Under the pieces are notes generated by a model. The model was given only the letters and a program-made list of their open reading frames with translations, was not told the DNA's origin and ran no database searches. The position numbers and the translations under genes were made by a program. DNA of 35,897 nucleotides from a virus: IMG/VR virus record IMGVR_UViG_3300009009_000030, positions 1-35,897 of that record; one strand, 5' to 3'. This document shows, one piece after another, positions 11,280 through 31,134 of the stretch. Numbering within the stretch: position 1 is the stretch's first letter; each line of letters opens with the position of its first letter.

Positions 11280-13790
11280 ATGTCAGAAATAAGATCTGGA
11301 ATATTTACCTCTAAAGAGTTCAGCTATCGTAAAAACGTGCTGAAGATAGCTCCTGATGCATTCATTACTATAAATGATGCGCTTACTTCAAGAGTGGTCG
11401 CACCTATGCAGGTTAGCGGTACAAAGGATTTCAATATTCGCGGAGGCATTACGAGCATTAGCGTGAATAGTGCTGTGAGCCCTGCAGGATCTTCTAGGGC
11501 AACATTTGAGGTTATGGCCCCTACTTATAAGGGTCTTCATGAAGATTATTATATAACACTTCCTAACGGGGTTAAGGTCCCAATTTTTACTCCTATGATG
11601 GAAGTTAAGATCTACATGAAAGGAAGGTTCCTTGAAATTGAGAATAATTACGTACCCCAGTACTACCCAGTATTCTGGGGGATGATTACTGGAGTTCAAG
11701 AAGGCTATAGTGGCGGGACATCAACATTTTCTATTACGTGTGAGGATCTCCTGACCTGGTGGAAACATCAGAAGATAAACGTTCAGTCGTCTGTAATAGG
11801 AGCCTATTATGGCGGTGCCACTATGAATAGATTCCCTAGTGTTTTTCAAAACATGTCCGCATGGGAAATTATTGTAGCACTATTTTCAGATACTTTTTTT
11901 ACGCAGGTAGATGAAAAAACAGGACAGCAAGCTTTTTATAATTTTATCTATCCGAAAGCCTCCAATACCATGTTTTTTCCTGCGACTAAAGATCTAGAGA
12001 GTACATGGGGCCCCTTTGCTAAAGATGTTATCCAATACTGGAATAGACGCTTCGGTTTCGGAGTTCTTACTAGCGGGACTAATTCAGATATTGCAGCGAG
12101 TTATGCCAATATCCCGCTCGAGATGATGGGTTTACAAGGAGGACTTAAAACAGATGTAATAACAGGCATCGCTGAAAGAGTGCTAAAAAGATCAAAAGAG
12201 AGTGTTGAAGTTGAGATGCAGACTTCTAGGACAGCACGTCTAGACCTGGATTTTAACTTGTTAGCTATAGTACAGCCCTACGGATTATTTGATTTATTTG
12301 GAGACGGTGCTGAATCCCAAATTAATTCTAAACTAGAATTAGCAAATAGTGTGTGCGAAAAAACTAATATGGAGTTTTTTGTAGATACTAACGGTCATTT
12401 TGTATTTAAACCTCCCCTATATAACTTAGATGTAGCCACAGGACAGGTTCCGTATTATAGAGTTGGTCCTGAGGATATAATTAACTATAATACAAGTTTT
12501 GATTCAAACGCTATTGTAAACTATCTGGTAGTTACAGGGCCTTTATGGCAACAGTTAGATATGGAAGCTATAGGTTTACACGCAGATTTCGAGTCTATTA
12601 AAAGATTTGGTATACGTTCTGATCAGATGACGATATCTTACGGTAAGAATGCTGAACAGTTAAAAATGATAGCGGTTGCGGAGATGACTAGAAGAAATGG
12701 CCAAGCATTCACAGCAAACTTATCTATACCACTTCGTCCAGAAATGCGTTTGGGCTATCCAGTGTACCTCCCCCATTTGGATACTTATTATTATGTTACA
12801 GGGATCACACATTCATTAGCATTTGGGTCTAGTGCTCAGACAGATTTATCACTGCAGTTTAAAAGAGACCGAGTTTTTGAAGACGGGACCTCAGGACTTC
12901 CTGATACACAGCTATGGGATGTACTGAGTAGTTGTGTGATGCGAGAGGCTGCTAAAGAATTACGCGACCCGAACTATCTCGACTCTTTGAAACAAAAAAT
13001 GAGTCCTGAGGTATATACACAGTATATTAAAGATCATTATGGAATAGATGCTTCAGTAGTTGATAGTAAGACTATTGTAAATGATATGGCAAAAGAGAAT
13101 GGACGTAGAGAGGTTAATCTTTTTTCTGGTCCGGGAATGCTGGGGTACTGGAAACTTGATAGAGCCGCTCTTCTAAGCTCTGCTGATGCATTATCCGGAG
13201 ATATAAAAGAAAAGCAGACTCCTAATGCGATAATATCTAATGAACTAGTTATGATTACAAAAGATTCTGTACCTTATACAGATAAGAATGGTTATAGGCA
13301 CATAGGAGCATTTCCTTTTGGCGCTAATTTAGTTCTCATGAAAAATGGTAAAATGTGGGATAGTTCTGACTATGTTCAGAATCAAGGGGCTGCAACACAG
13401 ACGCAACTCAATAGTACTGGAAATTTATCGCAGACTAATGATGCATCTAGTAATGTTACTTCCCAGGGCGGGGCTATTGAAGTAGCTACCACGGGTACTA
13501 CTGGAGAGCCTAATGAGACAAAAGAGACTACTATAGAAAAAACTAAGAATAAGATACAAGAAACAAAAAATAGAGAAGAAGCGGGGATTATGACCCCGGA
13601 TAATCTTCAAAAGACCTATAAAAGTCGAGAAGATGGGTATTATAAAAATGCGAGTTTAGCGGGTATCAATTCTGCGCAGGCTGATGCTACCGCAGCAAGA
13701 ACACAATTAGATGCGGGCAATGTTATGGCAGCTATCAAGAGTACAAGTCAACCTACACCTCAATCAATATTTTCCCCTAATACCTTATGA
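11280..13790 (+). CDS. Baseplate hub protein, gp27/gpD-like, with long C-terminal extension
   Basis: 836 residues. The N-terminal 520 or so residues have the look of phage hub or late-control proteins: a barrel beginning with APMQVSGTKDFNIRGGIT, the segment VFWGMITGVQEGYSGGTSTF followed by ITCEDLLTWW, then NSVCEKTNMEFFVDTNGHFV and, at the end of the second barrel, TYYYVTGITHSLAFGS. These are typical of the proteins that form a trimeric hub carrying the spike. Residues about 525-836 are extra: helices, an Asn/Thr/Gly-rich linker (about 700-745) and a charged KNKIQETKNREE region. The stop overlaps the spike start by 4 bases, consistent with coupled production of hub and spike in equal amounts. 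Its Shine-Dalgarno is weak, suggesting coupling to the upstream gene as well. Confidence 0.78.
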   Translation: MSEIRSGIFTSKEFSYRKNVLKIAPDAFITINDALTSRVVAPMQVSGTKDFNIRGGITSISVNSAVSPAGSSRATFEVMAPTYKGLHEDYYITLPNGVKVPIFTPMMEVKIYMKGRFLEIENNYVPQYYPVFWGMITGVQEGYSGGTSTFSITCEDLLTWWKHQKINVQSSVIGAYYGGATMNRFPSVFQNMSAWEIIVALFSDTFFTQVDEKTGQQAFYNFIYPKASNTMFFPATKDLESTWGPFAKDVIQYWNRRFGFGVLTSGTNSDIAASYANIPLEMMGLQGGLKTDVITGIAERVLKRSKESVEVEMQTSRTARLDLDFNLLAIVQPYGLFDLFGDGAESQINSKLELANSVCEKTNMEFFVDTNGHFVFKPPLYNLDVATGQVPYYRVGPEDIINYNTSFDSNAIVNYLVVTGPLWQQLDMEAIGLHADFESIKRFGIRSDQMTISYGKNAEQLKMIAVAEMTRRNGQAFTANLSIPLRPEMRLGYPVYLPHLDTYYYVTGITHSLAFGSSAQTDLSLQFKRDRVFEDGTSGLPDTQLWDVLSSCVMREAAKELRDPNYLDSLKQKMSPEVYTQYIKDHYGIDASVVDSKTIVNDMAKENGRREVNLFSGPGMLGYWKLDRAALLSSADALSGDIKEKQTPNAIISNELVMITKDSVPYTDKNGYRHIGAFPFGANLVLMKNGKMWDSSDYVQNQGAATQTQLNSTGNLSQTNDASSNVTSQGGAIEVATTGTTGEPNETKETTIEKTKNKIQETKNREEAGIMTPDNLQKTYKSREDGYYKNASLAGINSAQADATAARTQLDAGNVMAAIKSTSQPTPQSIFSPNTL

Positions 13791-15802
13791 TAAACCAAAA
13801 TATACCAAGACTCCCCGGGCGTCAGATCGCTTTAGGAGAAAAACCTACATTAAGCGCCATTGCCCAGGATTATACGACCTTCGTGGCAGGCTCTGTTCTG
13901 TCGGTAGACGAAGAGAAACTATGTGTATCTGTAAAACTTCGCGGTAATCTAGGGGTACTGCAGAACGTATCTATTTCTCAACCGTTTGCGGGTAATTCAA
14001 GTTTCATTTTAGGAGTGCCTGAAGTAGGCTCTTTAGTTTTGGTAGGGATGCAGGGTAATAATGATAGTTTCATATTGACCTATCTTCCGAACTATACGCA
14101 TGGTTTGGAAAACAGAAATGTCAAAATGCATCCTGATAATGTTATTACTGCAGATCCAAATGAATTGTTTTTTAGAGTAAAGAAGTTAAAACGAGGAGAA
14201 GTAGCTTTAGGTAGTTCAGGGGGTATGGAATTATTCCTTGGGGACTATTTTAGACTTGATGACCGGTTCGGAAATAAGTTTATACTTAGGAGTGATGAAA
14301 ATTCTTTACTGAGTACTGCATGCAATAATAGTGTGTTCAGTAGTGGTGTGTGGACTAACTCTGGGATAATAAAAAGAAATTCAATCGATCCCTCTATTAT
14401 AAGTGACTTGCCTAATATTATCCGTGTCCCTCTCCTAAATGGGCGGTATGGGTACTCTATGAAACCGGGCGGGTCTGACCCTAATGTTGACCCCTACTTC
14501 ACTGAGTACTTGTTGGAGGTCGAGGATAAGGGATATGCTCAGCCTCCACAGAATGATATGAATGGAGACTCCAATAGGACTATTCGTAGACCTATCGCAA
14601 TTTTTTCTATGGGTAATTTTGTAGGGAATAATCCGTCTACAGGATCCTATGGGCGCATGCTCAAGCCTATGCTGTTTCATGATGTTGATGATATTGTTGG
14701 AGACTTCTCTTTAGACCCCGCTCTCGGCGGCGAGATCGACACATACGGTATCGCTATGAGTTGGTTCAAACCAGAGCGCACTAATGCAGAAATAGGAGCA
14801 TTCTACGGCGTGGATAAAGAAGGGCATTTTTTCCATTATTTACCAGCTGCTACGGCAGGCGGTCTTGGAAAAGGTAGGTCGATGTCCATCTTGGCTCGAG
14901 GTAGTAAAAAAGAGGTATGGGGTAGTGATACGCGCTACGCGACTTCATGGGATATGACGACTACTGGCGGTATCGTATGGCGGGTAGGGGCACATAATGA
15001 ACGAGACGGGAGTCCACACAGCAACAGGAGCATAGATACCAGGACAAGTAGCTCTGTATTTTACATGTACGGGACTCAAGTAGTGCCAGAAGTAAAACAT
15101 TTTGATAAATCTGATATTGAAGTCACTAATCTACGCGATTATTTTAAAATTGAGAAAATTGGCGGTAGAGAGCGTCACGAGGTATCGAGTACTCGTGAGA
15201 CGATCGTAAAAGGATCAGATAAACTCCGTATTGAGGGCGCGCGTACAGAGCAGATAATTGGAGCAAATACTACGAGTATAGGTTCGAATATGAACATCGT
15301 GGTAGGAGATGCTTTTACTGAGAAGGTTACTAAAGAAAAGCAGGAGACCTATGGTAATAGAAAAACTACGATCACAAGCGGTAGTTCAGAGCTGATTATA
15401 AAATCTCTCAATGGTAATATCAAAGAAGAAATTGTAGTAGCAGGTAGTCGGACAGTAAAGATAAAACTTGGGGATATTAGAGAGACTATTGTTACTGGCG
15501 GTAGAACCTTCAAAACTACCGCAGGAAATTACAAAGTTCAGACTACTACAGGTAACATTCAGCTGACTACTAAAGCAGGAAAATTGTCTTTTCAGACTAA
15601 GGTTGGGAAGGCTGAGATAAAGTCTACTACTGGAATAAGCATTAGGACCAATCCTGTTGCTAATGTAAATATCCAGGGCGGGGCTATAAAGCTTAAAGGA
15701 AAAACGGCTGTTATGGGCGGTGTTATAACGTCTAAGACGCACAAAGACTATATTACTGGAGCCTTTCTTATGGGCTCTAAATCAGTGAGTGCCTCTATAT
15801 GA
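13787..15802 (+). CDS. Baseplate central spike, gp5/gpV/VgrG-like
   Basis: 671 residues, ATGA overlap with the hub gene. Residues about 25-115 form a probable OB-fold (FVAGSVLSVDEEKLCVSVKL, then VPEVGSLVLVGMQGNNDSFI), typical of spike N-termini that dock on the hub. Residues 115-455 are an extra region with Gly, Asp and aromatic residues. From about 460 to the end come short repeated beta strands rich in Thr/Val/Lys/Gly (RETIVKGSDKLRIEG, REQ-type turns, then TTTGNIQLTTKAGKLSFQTK), the pattern of a trimeric beta-helix needle. No lysozyme domain is inserted, unlike T4 gp5; the wall enzyme is on the gene at 9970. The C-terminus lacks an obvious metal-binding HxH tip, so a separate tip protein may be used. 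Confidence 0.85.
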   Translation: MINQNIPRLPGRQIALGEKPTLSAIAQDYTTFVAGSVLSVDEEKLCVSVKLRGNLGVLQNVSISQPFAGNSSFILGVPEVGSLVLVGMQGNNDSFILTYLPNYTHGLENRNVKMHPDNVITADPNELFFRVKKLKRGEVALGSSGGMELFLGDYFRLDDRFGNKFILRSDENSLLSTACNNSVFSSGVWTNSGIIKRNSIDPSIISDLPNIIRVPLLNGRYGYSMKPGGSDPNVDPYFTEYLLEVEDKGYAQPPQNDMNGDSNRTIRRPIAIFSMGNFVGNNPSTGSYGRMLKPMLFHDVDDIVGDFSLDPALGGEIDTYGIAMSWFKPERTNAEIGAFYGVDKEGHFFHYLPAATAGGLGKGRSMSILARGSKKEVWGSDTRYATSWDMTTTGGIVWRVGAHNERDGSPHSNRSIDTRTSSSVFYMYGTQVVPEVKHFDKSDIEVTNLRDYFKIEKIGGRERHEVSSTRETIVKGSDKLRIEGARTEQIIGANTTSIGSNMNIVVGDAFTEKVTKEKQETYGNRKTTITSGSSELIIKSLNGNIKEEIVVAGSRTVKIKLGDIRETIVTGGRTFKTTAGNYKVQTTTGNIQLTTKAGKLSFQTKVGKAEIKSTTGISIRTNPVANVNIQGGAIKLKGKTAVMGGVITSKTHKDYITGAFLMGSKSVSASI

Positions 15803-15860: not shown

Positions 15861-16478
15861 GTGCCAATAGCAGGACCCGCTATATCAAGCGCTATTCTTG
15901 GACAGTTTGCTGCTAGGAAATTTACTGGTAGAAATGCTATAGACATAGCTAGTGCTGTAGGTTCTGCGGTAGCTAACTATATAATACTACCTAACCTTGT
16001 GTCGTGCACACTGTCGGGTACTGCAGGTCCTGTAGGTAGTATAACGAGTATAGCGGCTGTAGGCCTTGAGCCGACGGCTATGAGCGGATTGATGACTTCT
16101 AAAGCTTTGAGCAAGAAACTTACAGGGAGAGACGCATCAGGATTATTTAGCGCGATTTCTATGGGGTTATTTCAAGTGATGTCAACGATGTTTCTTACAG
16201 GGTCTTCGATAGGGTGTGCCGTTGGGGCCGGTATAGGTAAATTTACGGCTGTATCAGCGCCAGCTCTGTCTAAACTTATTTTAGCTCAGTTGACGCTTAA
16301 AAAAATTATAGGTAGAGATGCCATTAACCTTGCTGACTGTATAGCATTCGGTCTTGTAACGCAGCTGAAATCATCTGTGACTATTTCGGTAGTGGTAGTA
16401 GGAGCTCCGGCACCAGTTCCGCCAGTAGGTCCGATTCTGGTTGCGGGAATCCCGTCGGTATTCACTAAAATTAGTTGA
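15861..16478 (+). CDS. Unrecognised hydrophobic protein of three internal repeats, next to the spike
   Basis: 205 residues with GTG start; GGAG (15852-15855) is 5 bases upstream and no ATG alternative is better. The sequence is Ala/Gly/Ser/Ile/Leu-rich with very few acidic residues. Three units share the pattern (K)(F/L/I)(T/I)GR(N/D)A followed by a hydrophobic helix-like segment: GRNA at 23-26, GRDA at 89-92 and GRDA at 151-154 (spacing 66 and 62). The end is Pro/Val-rich (GAPAPVPPVGPILVAG). I do not recognise the family. Being immediately after the spike gene, it could cap or chaperone the spike, or be a membrane-active component delivered with it. A 58-base gap precedes it. It could also be a classical membrane protein, but no signal peptide or positively charged flank pattern was seen. 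Confidence 0.72.
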   Translation: MPIAGPAISSAILGQFAARKFTGRNAIDIASAVGSAVANYIILPNLVSCTLSGTAGPVGSITSIAAVGLEPTAMSGLMTSKALSKKLTGRDASGLFSAISMGLFQVMSTMFLTGSSIGCAVGAGIGKFTAVSAPALSKLILAQLTLKKIIGRDAINLADCIAFGLVTQLKSSVTISVVVVGAPAPVPPVGPILVAGIPSVFTKIS

Positions 16479-16490
16479 TAAAGGATTAAC

Positions 16491-19400
16491 ATGGGCTCGG
16501 AGATTTTTAAACTTAAGTCGTTGTATATGGAAGACACAGTAGTGCGTGGCGCTCGTATCAATCTTAAGAACGCCAAGAACACTAAAACTGTACAAGTAAA
16601 TCCAGGTGAAGATCCTATTGTAAAAACAGGAGAGACTGGAGTATCTTCAGAATATGTTGTCCAGACATCTTTGATCGGTAATGATCTGAAGGGATACGGT
16701 ACTTTTACAAATAACAGTGATATCGTGCGGGACTATACAGGGCCTCAGAATGTAGCACATGGTGATATTATACGTCTTGATACGGATGTTACATTCTACA
16801 ACGTAACAGGTATGCAAGGTACCGATGTGTATCTGGCTGAAAAGTTTGTAAAAAAGAATACTACCGATCCGAGTGTGCAGTCTGGGGTCGCTACAGTAAG
16901 AAAGGTTAAGCTAGATAGCGTAAAGTATGAGTCGGTAAAAAGTGACGGCACCCAGAATATTATATCATATGACAAGGATAAAACTGATTGGGGAGTTACT
17001 GGAATAAACTTTTCAGATCCTAAAATAGCTCCTAGTAATCAGGTATCATTTGAGACTGGCATGACTCTGCAGTTTATGCCAGGAGCGTCTTCAAGAAAAG
17101 AGGACCTCACTACTGTAGGCAGTGTCTATAAAACTATTGTAGATAATAATACATCAGCTATTTCTGATCTCAGCCTCAGCCCTCTACCTTATCCGCATGA
17201 GAGCCTCAAAGTATACGCGGGTACTGTGTCGAGTGCTCCGACATTATTAGTAGAGCATGAAAATTATGTTGTAAATTACAGCCAGAGTCCAGAGTACAAG
17301 TTTCCTCGCCCTCCTTATGAGGAGCGTCCTGTAGCTTACCTCAAGTTCCTCGACAAGATTACTGAAGAAGTTCAGGTATCAAAAATTGATGGAACTTTTG
17401 AAGGCAACTTATCTATACAGAAGAAAACTATTGTTTCTGGAGGAGCTGACCTCGTACATCCTATTAAGGATATTATTCCTACAAGTTCTTTTGTAATAAA
17501 GGTGGCAGACTCAGATAAAAGAACCAATACTGATTATGTACCCGATTACGCAGCAGGTTTAGTTACTTTCGTAAAGCATAAAAACTCTGAAAGTCTTATA
17601 GGAGCTATATCCTACGTACAGAGATTAATGTGGGATGGGATTAGTGTTATAAAGGGTGTCACAGAAGATCTAGTCCAAGATACTTCTAATTTAGTCATCC
17701 CAGGAGTATCTGGCTTGCCCGGCGTAACTGGCATAGTATACTATGAGGATACGGATCAGAACAATCTTGTAAGAGATATCGACTATATCCTTGACCCAGA
17801 ATCCGGCTCCATAGGATTTACCTCTCCTCTAAAAGACTCTGAGTCTGTTTTGGTCTCCTACTATGTAGAGGGAGAGGACGTCTCCAATGAAAGAGTCCTT
17901 TTGACAGATATGCGGGCAAACAAGTACCCAATTATCACAAGCACAGTGACGTTAACCATGCAGTATAAAACTTTCGAAGAAAATAAAGAGGTTACAAAGA
18001 CAAAGGTGCTTGCTGAGGGTGAGGATTATACCCTGTCGTATATCACTGGTAGAATATTTTTGAATTCATTAGCTAGCGATGAGGAGGTACTATCCCTTGA
18101 GATTAGTTATACTCCTATGGCGGCTGTCAACTGTGTTATGCAGACAATCCCCGGGGATAGCCTAAACTATAGAATAAGAATCATTGATGATGTGGTTAAG
18201 ATAGTAGATCCAACAAAACTGGTTTTTCAGATCAACAATCCGCTTATATCGATACCACAGAAGAAAACGTTCCAGGATGAGATTACTACATCAAATTATG
18301 ACTTTTTGAGTCCTATCCTTCCTGATAGCCTGGTATCCATTACTAATGAGAAAGGGCCCGTCTCGTACGATGTCTCAGGATATACCTACACAGACGTGTC
18401 CAGGCAGATTAAACTGGATGAGTCTTTGGCAAGTAATCTTCCTGATATCGATGATACGATATCAGCTACGTATAGTTTTGAGGCAGAACGTTTGCCCTAC
18501 GCACCGGCGCTACTTATAAACGTCATTTTTAATCCAGGAGAATCGAGTTTTGTCATAGAGGGATTTGATCGTACAGATGTGCTAAAATCCGGCATGGTAA
18601 TAAGAATAGACAATTTTGATCCGGAAAACATTTTTTATTTCAAGATAAAATCAGTTACATATTTGCACAACAACACAGTAGTCACTTTATATGGATCCTT
18701 TTCAGAGACTATTATTAATCCGACATTCTATCTGTTGGATGATGCTATTGCATGGCAGAGCCTGCCCTCTGAGACTATCGTAGATACTACTGCGGCTGTA
18801 GGGTCTGATGCTTTTGTGATAGATGGTAGCCCTCTTCAGATAAAACAGAATATCAAAAAAGATTCTCTACTTATGGTTAATGAGGCTCAAATCTATACGG
18901 TTACTGCGGTCACGACAACTGGCACGCAGTCTATCATAGGAGTGTATCCGCCACTTCAAAGCGAGTTATCTGGGACAGTACAGTACTCGGCGCTGCCTAC
19001 GCATTCTAATGGAGATGATACGCTTGATGCACAATATTTTGCATTGACAGACCCAACAGAGCCAGCATTTACATTATCGTATAAAGCTCCAGAGGGATTT
19101 GAAGGCAGCGCTAAATTACTAGTGGATAAAACTAATATTGTTATTTTTGAAGCAATTCGGGGCATGGTAAATCCGGAACCTTATATTTTTAAAATATCTG
19201 ATTATGGCAGTGTGTATGAATTAGCTAAAACTATTCAAGGAACCAAGTCGACATTTCACACTAATGTTCCTCTATTAAATGTTCCAGACTACAGTCCTTT
19301 TACGATATCTCCCGATGGGAGTCTCGAGGAATATTATTTAGCTCAAGGGACGTATAGCCCAGAATGTATCGTACCGTTTGAACAAGATATATTGGTAGAT

Positions 19401-22400
19401 CTCCCGTACGCGTTTCAGATCACTCCGGATCTTTTCAAGTGGACATTACTTCAGGCTTTCGCTAACCAGCCATCATTTATAATTAAAAAAGTTGATCGTA
19501 CCGAAACTTTTTTGGCGGGTAACATTTTAGCTTTTCAAAATAAATGTGATGGAGCTGTATATTTTTATGAGGTAGCTAAATCAGAGCTTGTTGATGATAA
19601 AGTTGATTCATCTATAAAGAATACGTTAGTATCTTTACAAGAGGAGTTCAGAACAAATCTACTAGATCCAACAGTATTTAAATATGATAGTGTATTGTGG
19701 CAGCCGCTTCAGAATGATATCGCGGATATTGATTACGAAAATTCCAAAGTTACCTTCGGAGGATCTGTTCAAGGTAACCTGCGAGAAGGTACAGTTTTAA
19801 AATTTGCAGATAAGTATGTATACCAAGTCAAGGCTACAGAAGAGACCGTAAATAATTTTACCCTTACCCTGACGCCTTCTATTAATAGTAGTGTTCGAAT
19901 GGAATCCTATTTTGGGTACGTTAAACAGAGCTCTGTTCCTATATATCTAAATGAAGTAGGTCCACAGCCTTTTCTGTCTGTTATATATACAGCTCCTACA
20001 GCACATACAGGGAGCGCCTCTATAAAAGTCGATGCTGACGGTGTTTACCTTAAAGAGACTGTAGATAACTTTCATGAGAAGCAGACCGTGCTCCTATTTA
20101 GTATGTTCAATAATTTTATGGAGTTGGTTAAAGCTATTAATGATGTTAAGTCGTATATAGACACCAGTACTCCATTTGCGGCAGCAGTGCCTGACTCCTA
20201 TGGGGCTATACTAGCTAATGATAAATTTGATATGTATAAGTTAAGAAATACTGGAGATCAGTACATAGCACTTCCTAATGTATTGTTAATTGTAGCGGCT
20301 GCTTTTGAGATTTCCTATACGGCTCCTGCGGGATATGTGGGCAGCGCTACAGTTACTGTATTGCCAGAAGAGCTTGTTCTTACAGAAACTATAGAGAACT
20401 ATCTTACCGAGCCTGTAACCGTTAATGTTGTACGTATTCGTTACAACAGTGCTCAGAGTATAAATCATCTCGCTAGTAATATATTAGCGGAAGTTCCTTC
20501 CCTGGTTGCCGGTGGAGGATACCCGTATAGTGCTACCCTAAATAATACTCAGTTATTTCGTGCTGGTTTCTGGGATGTCACGCATATTACTTCATTAGAT
20601 AACGCCCCCCAGAGTACCCCTACTAATGTTTATGGAACAGTAGACGGAGCTTATTGGTACGGTCTAGGAATTTTGAATGAGCATCGTATGGTCCAGGGTA
20701 CCGATTATGAGATAGAGACCGGCGCTGTAGCACTAACTACGCCTATTATCCCATTAGATCGATTCCGATTTAACTACTTAGGCCTTTGGAATCTATCGGA
20801 GTATGAGGGATCCTCTATCAAGTGTACCTGTCGGTATTTTACAGATCTAGCTGTAGGTTCAAGAGTAGATATCTATATGGATTTTTTGAATATCGATCAG
20901 TTTTATTTGCAGAAACTAACTGAAAAGAAATTTACTGAGATTGTAGTAGCCCCGCAGATTCAGGAGTTGCTAGATCAGAAAGGTAGCGGAGGAGGTCAGG
21001 GTAGTGACAACGGAGCAAATAATAATAGCACTCCGGCATATCAGGGCGGCTCTGTAGATCTTTACTATGCGCTACGTGATGAAGAAATTAAGAAACAGCT
21101 TTACATTAGATTTTACCATTGGTATAAAGAACGCCTCAGAGACCTCTCTGCAGAACTCCAATTAGGTATGGGTTTTAAGTTTGGGCATAGTAATGCTTTG
21201 GGACTTGATCATAATAATCAATATTCTCTAGAGGATCAGTATGTAGAGAATGAGGACTATACTCTTACGACTGATACTGATATCAAACAGATTAATAATG
21301 GTTTTTCTAAGTTTTTTCCAGTAGGCTATGATAGCCAAGCTCCTATGTACTATCCGAGATTTGGGGCTGAGTCTATTGGGTATAATGATGTGTACTGCTG
21401 CAACATTCAGTATCGAAAAAACGGTGTTATTGTTACTGAGGGTTTCGTAAAATCCGATAATCCATACTGGAATCGCGACTTGAATTTTATGGTATGGAGT
21501 GATGACTCAGTAGCGGCTAATAAGAACCTTGTAGGATATTATGAGGTAGAAGTTCCTGTAGCAGATCGAACAATAGATGCTAGTACTTATACTTTTTTGC
21601 GCAGGATTGATGTGGGAGATAAGATTAGACCGACTCAGTTCAATAGCTACTATGATATTGCCTCGATACAATCTCCTGCCGGAAAAACTTATGAATATCT
21701 AGTATTAAATAAACCCTTATCTGAGCGGGGTGTAAAGACCTATATCCTGAATGACCTTGACCCTAAAAAAGAACTTAAAAATGAGGATGGGGTTAGTATA
21801 TCTTCATATACGTCTTTTGATACCTTTGTAGAAAGTCTTCCTCCAGATGGGTATCAGATTTACGTAAAGCGTCAGGATAAAGAGCCCTTTCCTATGTCAG
21901 ATGACTACGGTAATTTAGGGGCTTCTGCGTATGGCGAAAATATTGAAGGTTTAGTCAGAAACACCCGTCGCATCAAAAAACCTTTTTTACAGGCTCTCTT
22001 GAGACTTCTATTTCCTGTATCTTTTGCAGCGACAACTCCTCACAAAAATTTCAAAATATGGGTTAAAAAAGATTCTGAGTCTGACTGGGACGTGCTCGGA
22101 CAGATCGACCTCAAAAAATTGACTTTTAAAGAAGAACGTAACGCCGATGATGTTTTAGATGCTCTACGCCATGATTTCAAAGAAGTTTTTATAGTTCCAA
22201 GTCTACCTCCTGTAACTGTTTATGATATAGATGATGATATAGAAAAAGGTTTTCAGAAATATTTCTATCTTTCTATGGAGAGAGTCTATGATGCAGACAG
22301 TCCTGGCGGATATTACGATGGATTTGTTTTACGTGCTAGAAATAAAGAGTGGTGGTTCAAGATAACTAATGGCGATGGCATGGCTATTATAGATGATTAT

Positions 22401-25400
22401 GGATTCTCAGCATCTAAAGAGTATAAAAACTTTTATGATCCAGACAATATCTATAAGAGACTACTACTGGAGAAACAGGCATGGGAAACAGAAGCTTTGA
22501 TATTAAAGGATTTGTATGATCATAGCGATAAAATAGCGCGTGCTTTTGATCAAGGCAATTTGAATCGTACTAATAGCAAGTATCAGAACTATCTGGCTAA
22601 ACCAGAAGGAAGTACTAAAAACGGTATCTCAGATATCCTCATGACACGTATCCCTGCGTACGAAAAGCAGCTTCTTTATTTGATCAGTTCTACCGGACCT
22701 GTGTATCAAACGCTATATCCTGATTTTGTGCATCCTGAGGATAGCGCATCACCTGCGATAGCTCTTACTTTTAAACAGACGTCGCAGGCCTTGAGTATAT
22801 ATAATGGGGCATACAATAAAGAACAGTTCTACAAGAACCTTAACAATAACAATAATCTGACGTGGCGTAATGACTATGTAAAATGGGCTCTGAGTCTAGA
22901 GCGTGGTTTGATATATCAGAAAGATGCTCGAGATATGTCAGATGCTACTGCTCAAACGATAACTGTGGGACTTAGGGAACTCCCAGCGTTAGCTGTAGGA
23001 TTACTGGAAAACACAGTTTACACAGTAGAATCTCCAGCAGTGTCAGTTAAGTGGGACAGCTCCGGAAAAGTAATAAGTTTTACAGTTACCTTGATTAAAG
23101 TTCAGGGGACTGAAACTCGTATCGAGGGTCTTAGTATAGATTTCCCTCTATACAAGCATGTCACGTCTGGTGCTATTACTTCTTTGGTGTATAAAACTCT
23201 CAATGAGGTATGCTCTGATATCTCCAGTTATACTTTTGGGACTACAGGACCTAGACTATTCACGTGTAGCAATGTTTTTGAGCATTATGAAAATAGTATA
23301 GTTAATAATATGCTAGAGGTTTCAGCGTTGCCTATTGATCCAGTTTCTGGGGCTGTCCTCTCTGTAACTACTGTAGCAGATGCACGCGACTCGGACTCAA
23401 GAGTCCTCTTTTTAGATAAAGGAATTGAGGATAGGGTATACACGCACAATATTAGAGAGCTTCCTGGTTTTACTATAAAATATCTTGGTGAATATTATTC
23501 ACAGAGCGCAGACCCAGAAGCTTTTATAGTGCTTTCTGATACCGCAGTATTTCAGGATCTTAGTTATGGTGTTTTTTTAGATAATGGATACAAGAAAAAA
23601 ATCATTATTACGGGCACTACTATAGATAGCACTTTGTTAGAGATCGAGTTTAATCTATATGATAGCGTCAATAGCGTATACAAAACTTTAGGCTCATTAG
23701 TTTCTGAGATAAATGCCTATCGCTATGAAGGTGTGCAAATTTTTGATGCACAGGTGCCGCACATAGCTCCAACTATTTCTGCGGAGACGGTAGTTTTGAA
23801 TGATGCTTTTATTACCGCGGCATTTTCTTCAATAGGCAATATACAATGTACTACATATGCCCATGTAAATATGTCTTTGGATAATATCGATTCAGAGATA
23901 AATCAGGGTATATTTAGAATTTTTTATGCATCTGATTTTAAGAAGAAACTTGAAATTAGCTTTAGTTCAATTATTGTGGACGGTTCTGTTATAAAGACTA
24001 ATCCAGATCAAATTTCTGAAACATTTGTTTTTGATTTTCAAAATAGTGATTTATCCTTTAAATCGATCTTGGAGTTTTCGGAGGAGTTATCAGCATTTAA
24101 GTATAAGCAAAAAGCCTTGTTCGAGGCTATCCCGGTATATCAGAAAGATGAAGGTTCCGGGCTATCTACACGTTATGTTGTTGTCGAAAATCTAAATCGT
24201 TTTATAGGGTTTGATAAGGTAGAAAATATTTATGTTGATACCTATGTACAATCTATAGCCCCAACATCGAGTAATCGAGATGTTGCTAATGTACAGAATG
24301 CCTATTTTGCGCATCCATTCTATACCTCAAACGGTAATCCAAAAAAACTGCCTATTGAGGGGATACCGGTACCAGGGGCATGGGATACTCTTACGAATGA
24401 ACCCGTGTTAGAGCTCCAGTGTATCGGAGGCGTTGATTGGGAGATTACTTATAATGATTTTGAGAGTGGTTCTTACAAAAGCTATACACCGACCCAGATA
24501 GTTAATATCATAGATACTCAAGGATTCATTACTGAGGCACAATACGACACTGTGCGTACAGTAGAAGACCAGCCTGTAGTGTCTATTATAAAAGAGCTGG
24601 TACTCACAAGAAAAAGTTCTTTAGGAGATACCGTATTTACCGTAAATCTTAGACAGTACGATACAATTAGTAAATTGGTTTTGGCAATAAATGCCCTTAC
24701 TGTTAAAGATGCTCAAGGCATCAATACTAACGTATTTTTCGCAAAGTTGCTAGGGAGTACTTCTATTCAAGGTGCCTATAAAAGCTATGAATTGAATGCC
24801 GTGTACGTTCCTATTATTCGTAGTTTTTATGTGACATATGAAAATCAAGACGGGACAGTCAGAACAGAGTATAAACCAAATCATCTAATTGGGTGGTCGC
24901 TAGAGTCTTCAAAATATTCTTCTGTGCAAAAAACCACACTAATAATGTCGGAAAAGAGATACAGCACTGGAAATGCTTACCAATATAGGCTCAGCGCGCC
25001 TGAGGTAGCTTATCAGGATACTCTTGTAAATAACCCGCAAGGTTTTAGGCGCGATATTCTAGCTTTTGATATATACTGTTGGGATGACGACGGATACTAT
25101 GAAATAAAGGATAACTGGATATACTTTAGAAGCGCTCAAGTAGGGTATGAGTACTCTTCCGATCTCGGGCAACCTGACAAGACTTTAGGATATGGGATAC
25201 CTCTTGCAAGTTCTGGACACAGCTCTACGAGCGCTACAGAGAGTTTAGTGACACTCATCAATAGGATAAATAGTAATGGAATAGTCAGTAAAAAGTTCCA
25301 CGCTAACCTCAAGTTTACACGTAGTGATATTAATGAGCCAGGATTTTTTGAGTACGGATATCTTCCAAATTTTCATACCACTGTTCCAAAGTCTGTGCTG

Positions 25401-27008
25401 GATAATATCTATTTAAGAGATGATAATGTATTAACTCTGCGCCCTGGGACTGGTTATTCTTTTCTAGGAGCTTCCTATAACGTTAATAGTGCGGCGCGTA
25501 CAATAGATCTCATGAGTAACTGGAGTTATACATATGATTATTCAGTGACTTTTGATTTTTCAGCGCTAGCATATAGTACTGTAGGAGGGTTAGCTTCAAG
25601 TATCAACAGTGAGTTAGTGCCCAATATAGTTAGTTCAGTATTTGAGGCTAATATCGTTGGTACCCACTCTTCTGATAGTAGCTCTACAATACTCGCAGAC
25701 AAGGGCCCTGTTGCAGAGATTACCGAGGTTTTAACAGTTGATACGCTTTTAAACTATGTCATAGTTAGTAGGAGTGATTGGTATGTAGACGATATTGTTA
25801 CATTCACTACTACTGGAGCTTTACCTGCTCCACTTGTTGCAGGCACTCCATATTATGTAGTCAATAAATCAGTAGTCGGGCCTGTAATAAATCTTCAGGT
25901 TTCAACATCTTTTGGCGGGCCCTCTATAAATATCACCTCATCAGGTAGCGGTATTCAGAACATTCATAGAAAATACGTTGACCTATTAGTTGATCCATTA
26001 TCTGTAGTCCAACCAGCCCTACAGATACGCGTTAGAAATCTTGCTGGAGTAAATTATGCTATATCTAATGCTAGGTATGATATAGCAGATAATCAATCAA
26101 GTTTAACTCTAACCTGCTCTATACGATATTTTGACACGTTCTCTTTAACTGGTCAAGATTATAGTACCCTCACTATCGGTGAATTAGGGGATCTGTTAGG
26201 AAGTCTTCAGCATTATGTTGCTTCCATATTTCCGCCATTGTTCAATTCTACGGTGGTTAATGACTTTTATACGCTCAAAGAGGCTACTCGGATGTTAACT
26301 GCTGCAGGGACTATAGATCAAAACACCTATTTGGCAGCGTCTTTGCATGATCTAGTAGCAATAAATCTTCTGAATATGAGTAGTCAAGCTAACACAGTAG
26401 GGTTTACTAACTATATTCAAGCGATCTCAACAACCACATATGATGCACCTATTCCGATTGATAGGGATCTCAACAAATGGGTAGACGAGGCTTTATATGG
26501 CAACTATAAAAAAGGCTTTATCGCATTAGATATTCTTCCTATAAAGATACCCGGGGTATCATACGGTATTCCTAACGTATATCCTCAGACCCAGCTTTAT
26601 TCAGACAATATTCCAGCTCATGTTTTTTTCGGAATCCTAGGTGATATTAGTTGGGTGCAGATCTCTGATAAAAATCTGCATGCGCAATTGAACTATGTTA
26701 AGGAGCGTCTAGGTATGCCATGGAAAAATGACCTAGGCATAGTTGTTCCAGATTATTACACCCCTGAGCAATTCAACGTGAATAATCCCTACGCTATTGA
26801 TCTTGATAATTTTTTAGGGTATTTACGTACGGTACGCTATAATCAGATCAAAAATAGCGTGATTAATGAAGCACTTGTTAAAAATAAGTATTTCTGGCTA
26901 TACATGAAATTTCATAAGGAGTTTGGATGCGATCAACGTGTGATAGCTCTGAAAAAACAGATATCTCAGAAGGAACAGGATTCGGGTCTTCTGGAAGATC
27001 TGAGCTAA
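16491..27008 (+). CDS. Giant virion protein (3505 residues), beta-rich modular, probable baseplate or fibre component
   Basis: One open frame of 10.5 kb, starting 13 bases after the previous stop with AAGGA (16481-16485). I do not recognise a family over its full length. Residues 1-850 are beta modules with repeated hairpins (RDIDYILDPESGSIGF, EDYTLSYITGRIFLN). Three diverged units at about 860, 1161 and 1272 begin (S/I)Y(T/K)AP followed by GSA. A Gly/Ser/Asn linker lies at about 1496-1520. Residues 1520-2160 are less repetitive and partly helical. From about 2200 to 3220 a motif like YxTxxxLVxxINA recurs. Around 3110 there is a LPAPLVAGTPYYVVN segment of a type common in phage structural proteins. 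The end (3300-3505) is helical and globular. No signal peptide. Its place among spike and wedge genes suggests a baseplate-attached structure; function unknown. Confidence 0.9.
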   Translation: MGSEIFKLKSLYMEDTVVRGARINLKNAKNTKTVQVNPGEDPIVKTGETGVSSEYVVQTSLIGNDLKGYGTFTNNSDIVRDYTGPQNVAHGDIIRLDTDVTFYNVTGMQGTDVYLAEKFVKKNTTDPSVQSGVATVRKVKLDSVKYESVKSDGTQNIISYDKDKTDWGVTGINFSDPKIAPSNQVSFETGMTLQFMPGASSRKEDLTTVGSVYKTIVDNNTSAISDLSLSPLPYPHESLKVYAGTVSSAPTLLVEHENYVVNYSQSPEYKFPRPPYEERPVAYLKFLDKITEEVQVSKIDGTFEGNLSIQKKTIVSGGADLVHPIKDIIPTSSFVIKVADSDKRTNTDYVPDYAAGLVTFVKHKNSESLIGAISYVQRLMWDGISVIKGVTEDLVQDTSNLVIPGVSGLPGVTGIVYYEDTDQNNLVRDIDYILDPESGSIGFTSPLKDSESVLVSYYVEGEDVSNERVLLTDMRANKYPIITSTVTLTMQYKTFEENKEVTKTKVLAEGEDYTLSYITGRIFLNSLASDEEVLSLEISYTPMAAVNCVMQTIPGDSLNYRIRIIDDVVKIVDPTKLVFQINNPLISIPQKKTFQDEITTSNYDFLSPILPDSLVSITNEKGPVSYDVSGYTYTDVSRQIKLDESLASNLPDIDDTISATYSFEAERLPYAPALLINVIFNPGESSFVIEGFDRTDVLKSGMVIRIDNFDPENIFYFKIKSVTYLHNNTVVTLYGSFSETIINPTFYLLDDAIAWQSLPSETIVDTTAAVGSDAFVIDGSPLQIKQNIKKDSLLMVNEAQIYTVTAVTTTGTQSIIGVYPPLQSELSGTVQYSALPTHSNGDDTLDAQYFALTDPTEPAFTLSYKAPEGFEGSAKLLVDKTNIVIFEAIRGMVNPEPYIFKISDYGSVYELAKTIQGTKSTFHTNVPLLNVPDYSPFTISPDGSLEEYYLAQGTYSPECIVPFEQDILVDLPYAFQITPDLFKWTLLQAFANQPSFIIKKVDRTETFLAGNILAFQNKCDGAVYFYEVAKSELVDDKVDSSIKNTLVSLQEEFRTNLLDPTVFKYDSVLWQPLQNDIADIDYENSKVTFGGSVQGNLREGTVLKFADKYVYQVKATEETVNNFTLTLTPSINSSVRMESYFGYVKQSSVPIYLNEVGPQPFLSVIYTAPTAHTGSASIKVDADGVYLKETVDNFHEKQTVLLFSMFNNFMELVKAINDVKSYIDTSTPFAAAVPDSYGAILANDKFDMYKLRNTGDQYIALPNVLLIVAAAFEISYTAPAGYVGSATVTVLPEELVLTETIENYLTEPVTVNVVRIRYNSAQSINHLASNILAEVPSLVAGGGYPYSATLNNTQLFRAGFWDVTHITSLDNAPQSTPTNVYGTVDGAYWYGLGILNEHRMVQGTDYEIETGAVALTTPIIPLDRFRFNYLGLWNLSEYEGSSIKCTCRYFTDLAVGSRVDIYMDFLNIDQFYLQKLTEKKFTEIVVAPQIQELLDQKGSGGGQGSDNGANNNSTPAYQGGSVDLYYALRDEEIKKQLYIRFYHWYKERLRDLSAELQLGMGFKFGHSNALGLDHNNQYSLEDQYVENEDYTLTTDTDIKQINNGFSKFFPVGYDSQAPMYYPRFGAESIGYNDVYCCNIQYRKNGVIVTEGFVKSDNPYWNRDLNFMVWSDDSVAANKNLVGYYEVEVPVADRTIDASTYTFLRRIDVGDKIRPTQFNSYYDIASIQSPAGKTYEYLVLNKPLSERGVKTYILNDLDPKKELKNEDGVSISSYTSFDTFVESLPPDGYQIYVKRQDKEPFPMSDDYGNLGASAYGENIEGLVRNTRRIKKPFLQALLRLLFPVSFAATTPHKNFKIWVKKDSESDWDVLGQIDLKKLTFKEERNADDVLDALRHDFKEVFIVPSLPPVTVYDIDDDIEKGFQKYFYLSMERVYDADSPGGYYDGFVLRARNKEWWFKITNGDGMAIIDDYGFSASKEYKNFYDPDNIYKRLLLEKQAWETEALILKDLYDHSDKIARAFDQGNLNRTNSKYQNYLAKPEGSTKNGISDILMTRIPAYEKQLLYLISSTGPVYQTLYPDFVHPEDSASPAIALTFKQTSQALSIYNGAYNKEQFYKNLNNNNNLTWRNDYVKWALSLERGLIYQKDARDMSDATAQTITVGLRELPALAVGLLENTVYTVESPAVSVKWDSSGKVISFTVTLIKVQGTETRIEGLSIDFPLYKHVTSGAITSLVYKTLNEVCSDISSYTFGTTGPRLFTCSNVFEHYENSIVNNMLEVSALPIDPVSGAVLSVTTVADARDSDSRVLFLDKGIEDRVYTHNIRELPGFTIKYLGEYYSQSADPEAFIVLSDTAVFQDLSYGVFLDNGYKKKIIITGTTIDSTLLEIEFNLYDSVNSVYKTLGSLVSEINAYRYEGVQIFDAQVPHIAPTISAETVVLNDAFITAAFSSIGNIQCTTYAHVNMSLDNIDSEINQGIFRIFYASDFKKKLEISFSSIIVDGSVIKTNPDQISETFVFDFQNSDLSFKSILEFSEELSAFKYKQKALFEAIPVYQKDEGSGLSTRYVVVENLNRFIGFDKVENIYVDTYVQSIAPTSSNRDVANVQNAYFAHPFYTSNGNPKKLPIEGIPVPGAWDTLTNEPVLELQCIGGVDWEITYNDFESGSYKSYTPTQIVNIIDTQGFITEAQYDTVRTVEDQPVVSIIKELVLTRKSSLGDTVFTVNLRQYDTISKLVLAINALTVKDAQGINTNVFFAKLLGSTSIQGAYKSYELNAVYVPIIRSFYVTYENQDGTVRTEYKPNHLIGWSLESSKYSSVQKTTLIMSEKRYSTGNAYQYRLSAPEVAYQDTLVNNPQGFRRDILAFDIYCWDDDGYYEIKDNWIYFRSAQVGYEYSSDLGQPDKTLGYGIPLASSGHSSTSATESLVTLINRINSNGIVSKKFHANLKFTRSDINEPGFFEYGYLPNFHTTVPKSVLDNIYLRDDNVLTLRPGTGYSFLGASYNVNSAARTIDLMSNWSYTYDYSVTFDFSALAYSTVGGLASSINSELVPNIVSSVFEANIVGTHSSDSSSTILADKGPVAEITEVLTVDTLLNYVIVSRSDWYVDDIVTFTTTGALPAPLVAGTPYYVVNKSVVGPVINLQVSTSFGGPSINITSSGSGIQNIHRKYVDLLVDPLSVVQPALQIRVRNLAGVNYAISNARYDIADNQSSLTLTCSIRYFDTFSLTGQDYSTLTIGELGDLLGSLQHYVASIFPPLFNSTVVNDFYTLKEATRMLTAAGTIDQNTYLAASLHDLVAINLLNMSSQANTVGFTNYIQAISTTTYDAPIPIDRDLNKWVDEALYGNYKKGFIALDILPIKIPGVSYGIPNVYPQTQLYSDNIPAHVFFGILGDISWVQISDKNLHAQLNYVKERLGMPWKNDLGIVVPDYYTPEQFNVNNPYAIDLDNFLGYLRTVRYNQIKNSVINEALVKNKYFWLYMKFHKEFGCDQRVIALKKQISQKEQDSGLLEDLS
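19068..20420 (+). repeat. Three diverged protein repeats in the giant gene
   Basis: Units begin at 19068 (residue 860), 19971 (1161) and 20304 (1272). Each has the order Phe, two beta residues, Y(T/K)AP, G, GSA, then a hydrophobic strand and an E(T/A)(V/I) turn. Repetition is visible at protein level only. Confidence 0.6.
26916..26921 (+). promoter_or_regulatory. Internal ribosome binding site inside the giant gene
   Basis: AAGGAG lies 5 bases before ATG 26927 within the coding end of the 3505-residue gene, and decides the start of the overlapping 79-residue gene. Confidence 0.65.
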
Positions 27009-27166
27009 AAGATGTTCCTGGTTGGAAAATAGTAGAAGCCGGAAGTAGTGGGAGTTTCTCAAAAGATTTCGCTGCCCCGGTTCTTACTGCGCTAGTTAAA
27101 TTAGTGACCAAAGAGTTACATGTAATGGAGACTCAGATTAATAAGGAAAAAAATCATGGGCGTTAG
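26927..27166 (+). CDS. Small overlapping protein, 79 residues, unrecognised
   Basis: Begins inside the last 82 bases of the giant gene in another frame, fills the 147 bases that otherwise have no gene, and ends 11 bases into the next gene. An excellent Shine-Dalgarno (AAGGAG, 5-base spacing) precedes the ATG. The N-terminal 27 residues (encoded in the overlap) are Ser/Thr/Glu/Gly-rich; the rest, DVPGWKIVEAGSSGSFSK followed by an amphipathic helix FAAPVLTALVKLVTKELHV and a charged end, looks like real protein. It could be a small baseplate or assembly factor, but the family is unknown. Reality is supported by the ribosome site and by the absence of stops in the gap. Confidence 0.68.
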   Translation: MRSTCDSSEKTDISEGTGFGSSGRSELKDVPGWKIVEAGSSGSFSKDFAAPVLTALVKLVTKELHVMETQINKEKNHGR

Positions 27167-28886
27167 AGTAAAATTTGATATGCTACCGGAGTTCGTAAGG
27201 CCTAAACTTGATGACCTTGATGTTACTACGGTAACTATTTCTGATCTTCTTCCAACATCTAATCTTGGAAAAAGCTCAGATATAGTGAAATCATCGCAAA
27301 AATCTCAACCTAATGATCAGCAGAACTCTTCTAAAGGATACCACTGGAAGAGCTGGGAACTTAGTTTGAGTTTGTCTAATATGGAGTCCGCCGCAAAAGC
27401 GATAGAGACTTTTTTGAAGCAGCTAGATAAGCTAACAAAAGTTATTACACAACTTCTTAAGGTAATGAGGCTACTGAGTGGTAATGTAAAGTCCATAGCT
27501 ATATTTCTAAAATTTACTATAAAGATAATATCTAAAGAACTTAAAAATTTTCTTGATTCATTCACGTCTACTGGTATATACATGAGCGTTATAGCTCCAA
27601 ATTTTGACAAGAAATTCCCTAAGTATACCATACCCGTATTTGGAGGATTCCGAGAATTTATTACACGTGTTAATGCTACGTGTTCTAATAGTTCTGATCC
27701 TGATGCCCCTCGTTTCGATAATCCTAAAGATAAAGTCGGTGGTGTAGTTATAGGAATGTTGGGAGGCACTAATGATCCAAAGTTTTTGAGCGATCTTATA
27801 GAAAACTTTAGAATACTTAGTGAATTTTTTGGTTTTCAGAATCCTATGCCGACTCCTCCTAAAAATTTTAGAGTTGTTGCTGGATTTTTTAGTAATCCCG
27901 ATCGCGCAGGAGACAAGGCGGTAGGCGTACGCCTTACATGGGATCGACCAGATACTCCAGTATCTTCGTACATCGTATATCGAGCTACAAGTCCAAAAGG
28001 TGTCCTTAAAGACGCAAAACAAGACGGTTCGGATGTTGTGGTTAGAGTAGTAGGAGAACCTATTACTGAGCTTAAGGACGCCAATGCTAAGCTTTTTTAT
28101 CGTTATACAGATTTTGACGTAGACCCCGGGACTCGCTACTATTATAAAGTTTACAGTGTTGTTGGTGATAAGTTTTTTGAGACAAACCCTATTCTTGAAG
28201 ATATTAAGAGTCCTATAGCTACGCCTCTTGTTACTGTGGTTCCTAGAGAAGTCATACCACTCTCGGAGCTTGCCAAGTATACCACTCTAGGCATAAATGG
28301 AGAGCTTTTGTCCCCCTTTGATTTTGAAGGTGAGTGGCAGTCTATTACTGTTAGAAGGCTAGTAGGTAAAGCACTTGATGGAATTTTTAACCAGATCGAC
28401 GCATTAGCTGATAAGCTTGTTGGATTAGTGGATACGGGCAGCAGCGCTACTACCGCTTATTTAGATTTTTATGCAAAAAGAGTCACGGCGCTATTAGATA
28501 CAGTTACTCGGTTTAGGGCTATTGTAGAAAGGCTCATGGCATTTAATCTTCGCGGATCTTTTATGGTTTTAAATCTAGATGTGCAGGAAGGCGGGATGGC
28601 CAATTTTGTGCGCCGTTTTAATCAAGCATCTAGTATAGACAATACTCAAAATGGCGTAAAACAGCCAGGAAATAGCCCACTGGCTACTACTCAGAATAAC
28701 GGCATCTCAAAGTATACTGAACAAGGGATAATGTTTGGAATAATCATTTTATACGGTTTTCCTGAGATAACGACCGAGCGTCTATTGGAGGTTGTTCCTC
28801 CTAACCAGGTTAAGGATTTAGAAAAACGTATAAAGAATACCGAGACAGCTATTAAGACTCTTTTGAAATTGCTTGGATTGGAGTGA
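27156..28886 (+). CDS. Baseplate-region protein with fibronectin type III-like domain
   Basis: 576 residues, ATG preceded by AAGGA (27143-27147). Order: residues 1-65 Ser/Asp-rich and probably extended; 66-145 hydrophobic and amphipathic helices (MESAAKAIETFLKQLDKLTK and a following Leu/Ile/Lys-rich stretch); 145-230 mixed; about 232-350 an FN3-like beta sandwich (VRLTWDRPDTPVSSYIVYRA, later YRYTDFDVDPGTRYYYKVYS, with the Trp and Tyr positions expected in FN3); 380-576 helices with Leu/Val repeats. FN3 domains are common on phage tails, where they mediate protein or surface-carbohydrate contacts. Neighbours are giant protein and wedge genes, so a baseplate-periphery role is likely. The helical parts may pack against its neighbours. 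I cannot name a family for the remainder. Confidence 0.72.
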   Translation: MGVRVKFDMLPEFVRPKLDDLDVTTVTISDLLPTSNLGKSSDIVKSSQKSQPNDQQNSSKGYHWKSWELSLSLSNMESAAKAIETFLKQLDKLTKVITQLLKVMRLLSGNVKSIAIFLKFTIKIISKELKNFLDSFTSTGIYMSVIAPNFDKKFPKYTIPVFGGFREFITRVNATCSNSSDPDAPRFDNPKDKVGGVVIGMLGGTNDPKFLSDLIENFRILSEFFGFQNPMPTPPKNFRVVAGFFSNPDRAGDKAVGVRLTWDRPDTPVSSYIVYRATSPKGVLKDAKQDGSDVVVRVVGEPITELKDANAKLFYRYTDFDVDPGTRYYYKVYSVVGDKFFETNPILEDIKSPIATPLVTVVPREVIPLSELAKYTTLGINGELLSPFDFEGEWQSITVRRLVGKALDGIFNQIDALADKLVGLVDTGSSATTAYLDFYAKRVTALLDTVTRFRAIVERLMAFNLRGSFMVLNLDVQEGGMANFVRRFNQASSIDNTQNGVKQPGNSPLATTQNNGISKYTEQGIMFGIIILYGFPEITTERLLEVVPPNQVKDLEKRIKNTETAIKTLLKLLGLE

Positions 28887-30387: not shown

Positions 30388-31134
30388 ATGTCTTATGATA
30401 TTAAACTGCAAAACAAGTGTGATCATAGGATAAACTGGGAACAGTATCCTTTAGGATCAGATCTGAAGTCTGTTAAAATGGCCTATCCTGTAGCGTCTGT
30501 TTCAGCTCTTTCGCTGCGTATAAATAACGTAGTGATAGATAAGAATCAATATACGGTAGCTACAATTAGGAAACCTTTGTCTTTGTCTGTGGTTTCAGAG
30601 CTCCGTCTGAGATATAAGGTTAAGGACTGGATACCTCTTGTTGAGGTGAACTATACAACTTTTTCTAATGTATGCCCGAAATGCCTGGGATTAAACACAG
30701 CTGATGATTTATTGTACGGCCCTTCTGGGGATTATAAGTTAGTAAAGAAAGAGTACTTACTACTTCAAAGTGTTGAGAAAGTTATAGTAACTAAAGTGAG
30801 CAGTAATCCTTTTCATGGCTGGTACGGAACCGGACTGCACTCGCTAATAGGGTCCAAGACACTAGATTTTTCATTTATAAAAACAAAGATCATAGAGCAA
30901 GTTTCTTCCGCTATTGAGATGTTGAAGAATCTGCAAAAACAGCTTGTAGCTTCAGGTCGACAAGTAGACCCCGGAGAACTTTTTGGGCAGCTATTAAATA
31001 TAGATGTCCAGCAATCTCCGGATCCGACGATTATTATGGTAAACGTTATTTTTACGTCCCAAAGTAATCAAACGTTGGAGTTCTCGCAGTTGATTGACCT
31101 GTCAACTACAAGAGAAAGAGTGGCATTCGCATGA
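30388..31134 (+). CDS. Baseplate wedge protein, gp25-like
   Basis: 248 residues. The C-terminal 125 residues match the gp25/gpW pattern: YLLLQSVEKVIVTKVSSNPF leading into HGWYGTGLHSLIGSK, then a helix with QVSSAIEMLKNLQKQLV, and final beta strands TIIMVNVIFTSQSNQTLEFS. In T4, gp25 nucleates the sheath on the baseplate and binds gp6 in the wedge core. Residues 1-95 are an added beta domain. A CPKC motif lies at 96-99 and C11 and H13 are near the N-terminus, a possible metal site. No Shine-Dalgarno precedes the ATG, and the only in-frame alternatives are unattractive. It overlaps the next gene by 4 bases (ATGA), which matches the gp25-gp6 neighbour relation. Confidence 0.72.
   Translation: MSYDIKLQNKCDHRINWEQYPLGSDLKSVKMAYPVASVSALSLRINNVVIDKNQYTVATIRKPLSLSVVSELRLRYKVKDWIPLVEVNYTTFSNVCPKCLGLNTADDLLYGPSGDYKLVKKEYLLLQSVEKVIVTKVSSNPFHGWYGTGLHSLIGSKTLDFSFIKTKIIEQVSSAIEMLKNLQKQLVASGRQVDPGELFGQLLNIDVQQSPDPTIIMVNVIFTSQSNQTLEFSQLIDLSTTRERVAFA

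Follow-up and report, generated by a model that had tools for sequence, protein, structure and literature searches.

The window analyzed here, a 35.9-kb (35,897-nt) fragment of a viral contig, carries an uninterrupted gene for a 3,505-residue protein (positions 16491–27008, forward strand) that belongs to a family encoded in the baseplate cluster of huge phages. Protein size alone is not unique; the point of interest is that this family is conserved, unnamed, and size-plastic. As a tentative synthesis, which we hold to fall just short of an even chance, the family would be an undescribed conserved baseplate component of a broad assemblage of huge contractile-tailed phages, with a length (1.7–3.8 thousand residues) that evolves via beta modules duplicated, gained, or lost between fixed anchors, and with giant forms arising independently at least twice, perhaps bridging different cell-surface layers.

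The giant gene runs from ATG to TAA through 3,505 codons with zero internal stops, takes up 29% of the window, and has a predicted product of 392 kDa with a pI of 4.7. When the window was mononucleotide-shuffled 50 times, stop-free runs reached 268 codons at most; the remaining two same-strand frames across the gene contain 261 and 404 stops. The sequence AAAGGA lies 5 nt upstream of the ATG, and GC3 (0.327) is inside the range of the neighboring genes (0.294–0.399). The first-pass annotation, which had described a single 3,505-residue gene open for 10.5 kb, with a good ribosome site and with codon use like that of its neighbors, is borne out. When the window was compared with the related contig L007 in 500-codon blocks, pN was 0.21–0.34 and pS 0.74–0.85 in seven of seven full blocks; since pN is below pS in all of them, purifying selection acts over the entire gene, with its length kept as protein. 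That the frame is instead an assembly artifact or open by chance is negligibly probable and stands refuted by the same full-length ORF recurring in independent contigs from many metagenomes; selection in every full block also speaks against it, and no support for this reading was found.

The surrounding genes form a contractile-tail cluster, from the sheath through gpJ plus a YCF48-propeller protein truncated at the window end. Its order is sheath (35–1939; Phage_sheath_1C, E 8.9e-10), tube-position ORF (3219–3947), chaperone- and tape-measure-position ORFs (the latter at 5776–9117), SLT transglycosylase protein (9970–11277), hub, spike, 205-aa protein, and the giant, followed by a 576-aa protein, a 486-aa protein, a gp25-like protein, gpJ, and the propeller protein, where the names hub, tube, and tape-measure are based on position and weak matches. 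Among these forward-strand neighbors, the tail spike (13787–15802) was assigned as gp5-like from synteny and a weak Gp5_trimer_C match (E 4e-4, below the cut-off), the gp25-like wedge protein (30388–31134) from synteny and a weak phrog_43 match (E 0.062, clearer in a distant homolog at E 4.3e-5), and the gpJ/gp6 wedge protein (31131–34502), which served as the phylogenetic marker, from Baseplate_J (E 2.6e-21). By synteny, the 205-aa protein (15861–16478) invariably stands between the spike and the giant gene or its counterpart, and the 576-aa protein (27156–28886) comes next after it in nearly all relatives. The earlier placement of the giant between spike and wedge genes holds. The protein does not fit a tape measure, which would be mostly helical and directly follow the tail chaperone genes; the giant is beta-rich in the models and lies downstream of the spike.

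Three further observations concern these neighbors. The 205-aa protein is hydrophobic, with three repeats around “GRDA”, and its length of 205 is retained in most relatives; Pfam and PHROG scans of it returned no match. A small forward open frame (26918–27163), which overlaps the 3′-terminal part of the giant gene, ends at the 576-aa gene; the C-terminal part of its product (PxWxxVEAG...KEI...) is found at the equivalent place in L001, L002, L003, L006, L007, L017, and L019, and more weakly in L016, so that the frame probably encodes an unannotated small protein. Directly after gpJ, the YCF48-type beta-propeller (34505–35897, forward; PF14870, E 2.4e-20) has an N-terminal region in common with proteins of LR745208, Tunturi_5, and phage G.

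Scans of IMG/VR recovered homologs of the giant as one full-length ORF of 3,179–3,779 aa in at least 13 distinct viral contigs, L121 (3,590 aa) and L122 (3,616 aa) among them, with best segments 32–58% identical to the window protein. The homolog is always a single ORF with unchanged neighbors, and gene order from hub to gpJ is identical. The largest of these contigs measure 210 and 258 kb, which marks the carriers as relatives of jumbo phages; a host search yielded no match to the giant gene in genome contigs. Conservation within this giant family peaks at the N-terminus and at aa 1400–1625, 1976–2060, and 3376–3475, and is lowest in segments of variable presence: 1150–1390 (missing in L006), 2326–2600 (missing in L016, L017, and L019), and insertions at aa 2039–2044, 2708, and 3134.

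A gpJ profile search found 80 loci. The order spike, 205-aa position, slot, 576-aa protein, one further gene, gp25, and gpJ is kept in phage contigs of up to 512 kb. Half-size proteins occupy the slot in some of them (1,781 aa in L119/L067, 1,762 in L133/L056, and 2,371 in L120/L062), and these 1,762–2,371-aa homologs match the giant with HMM E-values down to 2e-87. In profile–profile alignment (hhalign, whose E-values here are pairwise and not database values), the half-size protein of L119 aligns with aa 3–1590 of the giant at probability 100 and E 4.6e-64, and the C-terminal tail at probability 85. More distant slot homologs from jumbo phages, 1,677–2,115 aa long, align with the half-size proteins at probability 98.3 and with the giant at 92, or 96.1 for module A alone; for two of them (L081 and L085) the giant HMM gives a direct match at aa 674–853. 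A helical hairpin can be aligned by eye across the giant, half-size, and distant groups, and with a tail HMM built from giants and half-size proteins the distant C-termini outrank nearly all decoys, each match being weak singly (E 0.036–1). The window protein shares with this slot family its gene place, between the 205-aa and 576-aa proteins and upstream of gp25–gpJ, as well as the module A core, the helical hairpin, and the C-terminal tail. One slot protein matching the distant profile, in the 485-kb uncultured phage LR745208, is itself 3,642 aa long (HMM E 7.6e-104). The gpJ matches also led to the same baseplate cassette in L135 (WJJK01000031.1), a 33-kb contig binned in a Candidatus Altiarchaeales archaeon MAG, which is possibly a host clue or possibly a case of mis-binning.

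Along the forward-strand giant gene, conserved parts alternate with repeated modules. A conserved N-terminal beta region (aa 1–660; 16491–18470), also present in half-size homologs by alignment with L119, precedes module A copy 1 (aa 667–930; 18489–19280), of which profile comparison places aa 667–850 in common with the distant jumbo-phage homologs. Copy 2 (aa 969–1230; 19395–20180) is an internal duplication (hhalign probability 99.3, E 4e-20), and self-comparison of profiles reveals a partial further copy (aa 1268–1392; 20292–20666) that falls largely in the stretch missing in L006. The conserved helical hairpin, with a Gly/Asn-rich loop (aa 1465–1570; 20883–21200), is supported by alignments and by helices 511–528 and 555–589 in the model of the distant homolog L072, and a second strongly conserved stretch (aa 1985–2145; 22443–22925), recognized in alignments, is predicted to be helical, at low pLDDT. 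Six related modules then follow, each tied to at least one other at probability 83–97 in profile–profile self-comparison: B1 (aa 2164–2285; 22980–23345), which has a confident beta model resembling sheath insertion domains; B2 (aa 2342–2425) and B3 (aa 2476–2572), both within the optional block at aa 2326–2600 (23466–24290); B4 (aa 2701–2758; 24591–24764), with an insertion of 79 aa at aa 2708 in L001, L005, and L007; B5 (aa 2985–3073; 25443–25709); and B6 (aa 3185–3274; 26043–26312). The conserved C-terminal tail (aa 3444–3505; 26820–27005), shared with half-size and distant homologs in profile comparisons and corresponding to a helical bundle in the L072 model, closes the protein. The beta core, helical hairpin, and C-terminal end are retained in giant, half-size, and distant forms alike.

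Judging from these sequence comparisons, the extra length of the giant comes from internal repeats and optional beta modules. The first-pass annotation had raised two possibilities, a giant appendage or a multi-domain wedge fusion, and the second is not supported: half-size relatives keep the same neighbor genes, and a search for the extra segments among the other genes of the relatives examined matched no separate gene, which argues for growth by duplication and insertion rather than by fusion with neighbors. The idea of one giant, modular, beta-rich baseplate-cluster protein finds support at the level of the gene and of a conserved family, and an appendage in the form of an arm is possible. 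In the gpJ tree, the giants fall into a single clade (100/100) whose sister is the half-size clade (97/100), and LR745208 groups with the distant clade (92/85) on a long branch. Since its 3,642-aa form thus belongs to another lineage, giant size arose at least twice, and the simplest reading would be at least two enlargements from about 1.7–2.1 thousand residues.

Database searches gave the family no existing name. Pfam and PHROG scans of the window protein yielded nothing under E 0.016, PDB searches with its sequence or with profiles brought up no meaningful match, and tblastn of aa 1–2999 against 50,697 phage records gave none. Alignment with hhalign to ORFs from the gpJ regions of T4, phage G, Tunturi_5, and LR745208 was likewise negative, the LR745208 slot gene lying outside the compared region, and no description of the slot family was found in the open-access literature. 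An AlphaFold model of aa 1391–2325 of the window protein had a mean pLDDT of 46.8, with module B1 (pLDDT around 80) as its sole confident part. The model of aa 485–1677 of L072, built from 23 sequences, was better (mean pLDDT 79.7, pTM 0.53) and lays out a chain of beta modules, the helical hairpin, and further beta modules, with a helical bundle (pLDDT around 90) at the C-terminus. Both models agree with the earlier description of the modules as beta-rich. In Foldseek searches with the window-protein and L072 models, no known structure matched over the full protein, nor was any T4 wedge protein matched. Matches to CorA, FliD, and ligand-gated channels were rejected, since they reflect the likeness of long helices or beta-barrels, in parts of low confidence or over scattered ranges.

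Gene context leads us to infer that the giant protein is present in the virion, where it is probably a framework or arm protein at the periphery of the baseplate, with the conserved parts anchoring it and the modules lengthening it. The N-terminal beta region, module A core, hairpin, and C-terminal helical tail would act as a framework docking on the wedge (gpJ, gp25, and the 576-aa protein), in as many copies as the symmetry of the baseplate dictates. Between these conserved parts, the repeated beta modules would string together into an arm or platform at the cell-facing periphery, bracing fibers and meeting the cell surface, and contact of the arm with that surface could be passed on to the wedge and from there to the sheath. 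Position, copy number, docking by the conserved parts, surface contact by the modules, and signal transfer are all our reading of gene context, conservation, and models.

The beta modules fit a fiber role equally well, as such modules are also present in fibers and spikes. A giant receptor-binding tail fiber or adhesin, encoded in the baseplate cluster by chance and attached to the baseplate without being part of it, would account for modules like those of tailspikes and tail tips, for a weak 62-residue match of a half-size homolog to PHROG tail fibers (phrog_1980, E 1.3e-5), and for the recurrence of one small distant-family module in ORFs that lie downstream of gpJ. We consider it unlikely, since the strongest conservation is spread over the two ends and the middle rather than confined to one attachment end, the gene keeps its place between spike and wedge whereas fiber-like genes come after gpJ, and Pfam and PHROG scans found no beta-helix, trimerization, or chaperone-domain match. 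Conservation that runs unbroken over module borders speaks against a polyprotein processed into several virion proteins, as do modules of variable length among which no recurring conserved junction resembling a cleavage site was seen. Head proteins are processed in jumbo phages, and the sheer size of the product invites the idea, which we nevertheless regard as decidedly improbable.

Also improbable, to about the same degree as a fiber, is a counterpart of T4 gp7 (or gp10), which would make the protein a subunit of the wedge core, in a bundle with gp6, carrying extra domains. The slot lies near gpJ and gp25, its conserved helices could join a core bundle, and the window offers no other obvious gp7; yet neither hhalign to single T4 sequences, a weak comparison, nor the profile search of PDB chains found a link. 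Moreover, the distant relatives encode, in addition to the slot protein, a separate protein of 266–273 aa directly after gpJ, a frequent site for gp7-type genes, which weakens the gp7 reading. Profile comparison linked this gp7 candidate to none of the window proteins and to no PDB chain. At three loci (L078, L083, and L088), GIY-YIG-like ORFs seem, by eye, to be inserted at the 5′ end of this 270-aa gene, as if homing endonucleases target it.

Tails of huge phages are poorly annotated, and the slot family, which is syntenic and alignable and was missing from Pfam and PHROGs in the scans made here, marks the baseplate cluster in contigs of up to 512 kb. It also illustrates that a baseplate-cluster protein can double in size via module duplication while its gene neighbors stay unchanged. 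If the arm reading is true, the number of modules should vary with the envelope or surface layer to be crossed by the phage.

Among known systems, the closest structural likeness of module B1 is to sheath insertion domains. Chains of phi812, presumably the sheath, match the B1 model with Z 8.9–9.6 (best for residues 151–251 of 9euf_P: Z 9.6, rmsd 2.7, 97 aligned), followed by phiCD508 (9gb5_e, Z 8.0) and, more weakly, by residues 128–238 of the P1 sheath (Z 4.2–4.9); unlike in those phages, the domain is here one repeated module of a far larger protein, at about 11% identity. Single L072 modules align with LKA1 gp49, K1 lyase, the Mystique tube, and the lambda tail tip (Z 7–11 over 68–81 residues), although no alignment of L072 to such tailspike, tail-tip, or tail-tube structures spans more than one module. 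T4 gp7 and gp10, wedge-region proteins from a baseplate cluster, are likewise large and made of several domains, but gp7 has 1,032 aa and the T4 gene order is unlike that of the window. The slot protein of LR745208.1, an unannotated record, has the hairpin and the C-terminal motif, with homologs of the 205-aa and 576-aa proteins nearby; it differs from the window protein in being linked to it only via intermediate families, in having been enlarged separately, and in a gene that does not adjoin gpJ.
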